A stretch of 64,000 nt of DNA, from positions 62,001-126,000 of the forward strand of contig JAEUHN010000005.1 in the NCBI GenBank assembly GCA_016795365.1, written 5' to 3'. Position 1 is the first letter of the stretch. Every line of letters begins with the position of its first letter. Of the stretch, positions 32,861 to 32,993 are shown piece by piece. This DNA is from Verrucomicrobiaceae bacterium (GTDB taxonomy: Bacteria; Verrucomicrobiota; Verrucomicrobiia; Verrucomicrobiales; Verrucomicrobiaceae). The notes under the pieces were generated by a model that worked only from the letters and a program-made list of their open reading frames with translations, was not told the DNA's origin and ran no database searches. The position numbers and the translations under genes are program-made.

Positions 32861-32993
32861 GGTTCTCGGTTCTCAGTTCTCAGTTCTCGGTTCTCACTTC
32901 TCACTTCTCACTTCTCACTTCTCACTTCTCACTTCTCACTTCTCACTTCTCACTTCTCGGCTCTAAGCCCTTAGCTCTTAGCTCTTAGCTTTG
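32861..32993. repeat. 133-bp heptanucleotide tandem array before ligA
   Basis: Nineteen uninterrupted 7-nt units. From left: GGTTCTC twice, AGTTCTC twice, GGTTCTC, then nine identical ACTTCTC (32896-32958), GGCTCTA, AGCCCTT, AGCTCTT twice, AGCTTTG. It fills almost the whole gap between the upstream aminotransferase-fold gene's stop (32997) and the ligA start (32851). On the transcribed strand it is a purine-rich GAGAAGT-type run. Nine identical copies point to recent slippage expansion. Confidence 0.95.

Follow-up and report, generated by a model that had tools for sequence, protein, structure and literature searches.

The STRRs of heterocystous cyanobacteria are usually 7-bp repeats that are able to form hairpins (PMC2670836), and heptanucleotides of Calothrix are cited in PMC4692102. 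TAACTGA repeats are known from marine Beggiatoaceae, from cyanobacteria and from Bacteroidetes; the indels that separate close Cyanothece strains are mostly 7 nt long, and in marine Beggiatoaceae the heptamers are concentrated directly before start codons (PMC4679880). GGGNATC and GGGGA(C/T)T heptamers have been described in Xanthomonas and Nostoc (PMC4692102). Heptameric repeats are over-represented in many bacteria, and the polymerase footprint has been proposed as the reason (PMC4692102). Rickettsia palindromic elements (RPEs) are palindromic inserts located in frame in conserved protein genes (PMC10969869, PMC3733652), and among REPs located within genes, many sit in genes for replication and repair (PMC3733652). 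No description of heptamer arrays in Verrucomicrobiales turned up in a limited search of open-access texts.

Here we describe a heptamer array upstream of ligA in a Verrucomicrobiaceae bacterium. The window, meaning the whole stretch of DNA analysed, is 64,000 nt long and comes from a draft genome (G000) of 6.74 Mb in 55 contigs. The repeats of this genome resemble STRRs in their 7-bp period, the presence of several units per genome, their occurrence in intergenic gaps, their capacity to form hairpins and the lack of an assigned function. They belong to another phylum and have other units, and they also occur in frame within conserved genes. The STRR features seen here are 7-bp tandem units, many arrays with an excess of period 7, and a length difference that is a multiple of seven, for which there is one clean case. 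Like TAACTGA repeats, they are intergenic, some lie just before start codons, they change in 7-nt steps, and one unit, GAACTGA, is one base away from TAACTGA; whereas a single start-codon-directed unit dominates there, here there are many units with no clear orientation. The ligA array itself is not a TAACTGA repeat, as its units are AGTGAGA, ACYGAGA and GCTAAGA. With the GGGNATC heptamers they share a genome-wide intergenic distribution, length variation between relatives and some inverted pairs. Those heptamers, however, form G-quadruplexes and are mostly kept between the same genes, whereas the Verrucomicrobial units have no G runs and come and go between sister species. GGG occurs once in the 19 units of the ligA array, at a unit junction, and not in every unit as in a G-quadruplex heptamer. 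RPEs are ~150 bp long with a family consensus, whereas the hairpin arms described here are runs of heptamers whose sequence varies between genera. The ligA array consists of direct repeats in one orientation and is not a palindrome of the REP or RPE kind.

A heptamer array fills the gap upstream of ligA

The genes for DNA ligase and for a PLP-dependent enzyme are separated by 145 nt (32996..32852, read on the minus strand; Table 1). The best match of ligA comes from a Verrucomicrobiota MAG in the same genus, and the next ones from Verrucomicrobiaceae. On the minus strand, which is the coding strand of both genes, the gap consists of CTCCAAA, 19 heptamer units and GTCCC, followed by the ATG of ligA. 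The array begins 7 nt after the stop codon of the PLP-enzyme gene, at 32997, and ends 5 nt before the ligA ATG, at 32851. Five diverged units come first, then a core of nine identical units, and then five diverged units on the ligA side, which belong to a GAACYGA family that is present elsewhere in the genome. Eighteen of the 19 units finish in AGA or AGG, and the first four positions vary most.

This reading of the minus strand confirms the 19 units, nine of them identical, that a first-pass annotation had reported from the letters alone. The annotation had placed the same array at 32861-32993, in a phase that differs from the register used here; it was right that the array fills the gap. The annotation's suggestion of a recent expansion within an older array fits the identical core with its diverged edges. 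The core has the top Tandem Repeats Finder score in the window (150). In a period-7 scan the array scores 95 against a threshold of 12; in one first-order Markov surrogate of these 464 kb, all periods from 4 to 21 stayed below that threshold. The ligA array is thus far beyond chance; since the assembly is a 55-contig draft, its exact copy number is uncertain.

The array had also been described as the leader of ligA. The gap is flanked by two same-strand genes, so this label is unproven, and a sigma-70-type scan matched no promoter within it; the gap may be an intercistronic spacer. The scan gave no terminator either, and a search for RNA families gave no credible match near it, with two weak sub-threshold matches elsewhere.

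Table 1. Coordinates of the ligA array, its neighbouring genes and related heptamer features. Positions are those of the window unless a handle is given; units of the ligA array are written in coding-strand order.
Feature	Position	Strand	Remarks
Heptamer array	32857..32989	-	19 units, single register
Diverged units, upstream-gene side	32955..32989	-	GCTAAGA, GCTAAGA, GCTAAGG, GCTTAGA, GCCGAGA
Homogeneous core	32892..32954	-	9 identical AGTGAGA (plus strand ACTTCTC)
Diverged units, ligA side	32857..32891	-	ACCGAGA, ACTGAGA, ACTGAGA, ACCGAGA, ACCGATA
ligA, NAD-dependent DNA ligase	30866..32851	-	661 aa; NF005932, E=2.1e-253
PLP-dependent enzyme, cystathionine gamma-synthase/BesB-like kind	32997..34502	-	same strand as ligA
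Gap with AAGGATG-type heptamer array (26990-27019)	26984..27112		~130 nt here vs ~4 nt in G001
GAACYGA units as inverted (hairpin) pair, another window gap	7664..7794	.	
TGATTCC heptamers in start of prepilin-like ORF (minus strand)	25582..25600	.	
uvrA in-frame heptamer hairpin	L170:14892-14979 (G000:C27)		
mnmA in-frame heptamer hairpin	L162:8091-8176 (G000:C41)		

Period-7 arrays are spread over the genome

The ligA array is not singular. A census of 61 stretches, covering 1.262 Mb of the 6.74 Mb (19% of the genome), shows that it is one of 23 period-7 arrays, compared with 0-9 arrays for any other period between 4 and 13 (24 in all). Two stretches, C11 and C41, were picked knowing that each contained an array; when they are left out the density of period-7 arrays is ~16 per Mb. 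Within this sample two arrays score higher than the ligA array and one about equally.

The arrays use at least eight unit sequences, among them GAACCGA, GAACTGA, GAAGTGA, GAAGGAT, GAATGAC, GAAGAGT, GCAGGGA, GCTAAGA and AATGACC, and they adjoin unrelated genes. Different units can abut in nearly one register, as seen in the C11 array and in the ligA array. Judged by the simple codon-usage caller used beyond the window, which is crude (coding fraction only 0.69), roughly half of the 23 arrays are intergenic and several fall inside ORFs. One intergenic array (C20:2187-2272) ends 6 nt from a start codon. In the window, heptamers at 25582-25625 occupy the first codons of the prepilin-like ORF, ahead of its conserved FTLVE motif.

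Arrays in other genera of the order are built from other units. The GAACYGA triple unit was considered as a phylum-wide motif and rejected: among 145 genomes it was found in G000 only, although related patterns match in a few family members.

Arrays are gained, lost and resized between sister species

We compared the arrays with those of a single sister genome of the same genus (G001); both genomes are drafts, and assembly may affect copy numbers. The order of the PLP-enzyme gene and ligA is kept in G001, with protein identities of 96% and 98%, the latter for the ligase. The heptamer array is absent from the G001 ligA gap, where an unrelated inverted repeat of GACAGGATTAACAGGAT ... AAATCCTGTCC type is found instead. 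This ATCCTGTTAATCCTGT-type repeat is rare in the sampled stretches of both genomes. A ATCCTGTTAATCCTGTC-type repeat lies near the ligA start in three genomes, in the gap upstream of ligA (L009) or just before the gene (L020, L035); it is rare across the sampled stretches, and the sister species has it in inverted form.

Other arrays differ as well. A 99-bp GAATGAC array (C20:19556-19654) is missing in G001, the C11 array measures ~245 bp here and ~30 bp in G001, and the array at C41:76557-76602 is shorter than its G001 counterpart by exactly one GGTTCTC unit. The last is the one clean case of a length step that is a multiple of seven; the other comparisons show gain, loss or large changes. The one-unit difference at this orthologous array indicates that copy number changes between species, in line with the first-pass annotation. 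GAACYGA arrays occur at many other loci of G001, so both species have the family. An array that combines three heptamer families (C1:208273-208446, L150:8273-8446) has its flanks on different G001 contigs, and a rearrangement may have occurred there.

Heptamers form in-frame hairpins in conserved genes

Inverted pairs of the same units (GTTCTC... followed by ...GAGAAC) occur both in gaps and in reading frames. In uvrA (C27:259566-262613) such a pair encodes 30 residues just past the Pfam UvrA DNA-binding match, and its hairpin is predicted at -42.7 kcal/mol with RNA parameters. Likewise, the gene at C41:67406-68560, which we take to be mnmA from sequence knowledge and the alignment of homologues, carries an in-frame insert whose hairpin is predicted at -42.1 kcal/mol. 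Both in-frame hairpins with these units are found in G000 and in G001.

Aligned relatives differ in length at the two insert sites, and several have no insert. Period-7 hairpins made of other units occur in G009 UvrA and in G011 and G005 MnmA, and the UvrA genes of G005 and G006 contain hairpins without period 7. Since the inserts differ by lineage, these sites appear to be tolerant protein loops that, like the ligA gap, take different repeats. The non-heptamer hairpins of G005 and G006 UvrA (L250, L256) lie in frame and encode GILPM..GQDAHAT-like peptides.

Heptamers are also in frame in a dnaX-like linker, a prepilin leader and two PSD1/PSCyt paralogues. In the paralogues (L136:14135-14225 and L180:9266-9294) GCTAAGA-type heptamers stand at a matching position after TYRQ and encode SEELRAKS and LYALRSSLYA.

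Discussion

The ligA array is best read as the Verrucomicrobial equivalent of cyanobacterial heptameric STRRs. We consider it probable (about 0.78) that it is a copy of a genus-wide, STRR-like heptamer family that drifts at tolerant sites, and that ligA is a bystander. It is one of many arrays and is missing from the same gap in the nearest sequenced relative, and therefore looks like a drifting repeat and not like a ligase switch. Heptamers would arise where inserted DNA is tolerated, namely in short intergenic gaps and variable protein loops, and would change in length by 7-bp steps through replication slippage or unequal recombination. Such stepwise lengthening and shortening would leave a homogeneous young core with older, diverged units around it. 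The ligA gap would then be a tolerant site, and any influence of the array on ligA expression an incidental one. That slippage or recombination is the engine, that new sites are seeded and that the array has no function at ligA is what we infer from these comparisons. Slippage alone cannot explain the same units at many loci, or the inverted pairs, and the position of the array, 5 nt from the ligA ATG, speaks against a bystander, as do the C20 array that ends 6 nt from a start codon and the similar placement of heptamers in marine Beggiatoaceae (PMC4679880).

A different reading, to which we give a small chance, is that throughout the order some process sets the repeat length to seven and leaves the sequence free, with each genus having its own heptamers. 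It would cover both the direct intergenic arrays and the in-frame hairpins at the same tolerant UvrA and MnmA sites. If true, it would favour a 7-nt mechanism that is dedicated or set by an enzyme over ordinary slippage of chance sequences; candidates would be the footprint of a polymerase, templated addition or the copying of hairpins.

It is quite unlikely that the repeats act as a general post-transcriptional element, in which GA-rich heptamers in mRNA are bound by an RNA-binding protein (S1, Csp or CsrA type) or make the transcripts of many operons more stable. Some arrays do lie near start codons, and proposals of this kind have been published for the TAACTGA repeats of Beggiatoaceae (PMC4679880) and for cyanobacterial STRRs (PMC2670836). 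However, among the few arrays flanked by same-strand genes some have their purine-rich side on the coding strand and others on the opposite strand, the unit sequences differ greatly, some arrays lie inside genes, and sister species differ by gain and loss of arrays.

The first-pass annotation had proposed that copy number alters the length or RNA structure of the ligA leader and thereby ligase expression, with a speculative feedback on repair. Such control, in which the number of units sets the spacing or RNA structure and tunes the ligase, would suit an array that fills the gap up to 5 nt from the ATG and belongs to a family that changes by whole units. In a simple RNA model the unpaired fraction of the first 20 coding nucleotides of ligA falls from 0.36 to 0.25 as units increase from 0 to 20, so that predicted pairing rises somewhat with unit number. 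Yet over the same range the unpaired fraction of the 20 nt before the ATG stays nearly flat, at 0.64-0.68. The array contains stop codons in every frame of the coding strand, and thus there is no translation through it. Furthermore, the sister species has a 98%-identical ligase in the same gene order with no array in the gap, none was seen among the other ligA upstream regions inspected, the same units lie beside and inside many unrelated genes, and no promoter matched in the gap. Together these results make length-variable control of ligA very unlikely and lend no support to a feedback on repair; an incidental effect of the array on ligA expression is possible.

Insertion of a mobile palindromic element in hairpin form (compare REPs and RPEs, with a transposase), with the direct arrays as expanded remnants of one arm, would account for the hairpins in uvrA, mnmA and gaps and for gaps carrying DNA missing from the sister, but is barely credible given that neither a fixed sequence nor fixed ends were apparent, that the arms differ between orthologues and that long arrays are mostly direct and not inverted.

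Heptameric repeats are already known in other bacteria, so the ligA array is not a new kind of repeat; it adds a Verrucomicrobiales case. The drifting-family reading removes, as unsupported, the story of a self-tuning ligase switch. On this reading STRR-like heptamers are active in Verrucomicrobiales too, with turnover between sister species and in-frame entry into conserved genes of DNA repair and tRNA modification. The in-frame hairpins are of more interest than the ligA array itself. Because a single genus shows gain, loss and differences of one unit between orthologous arrays, the preference for period seven becomes testable.
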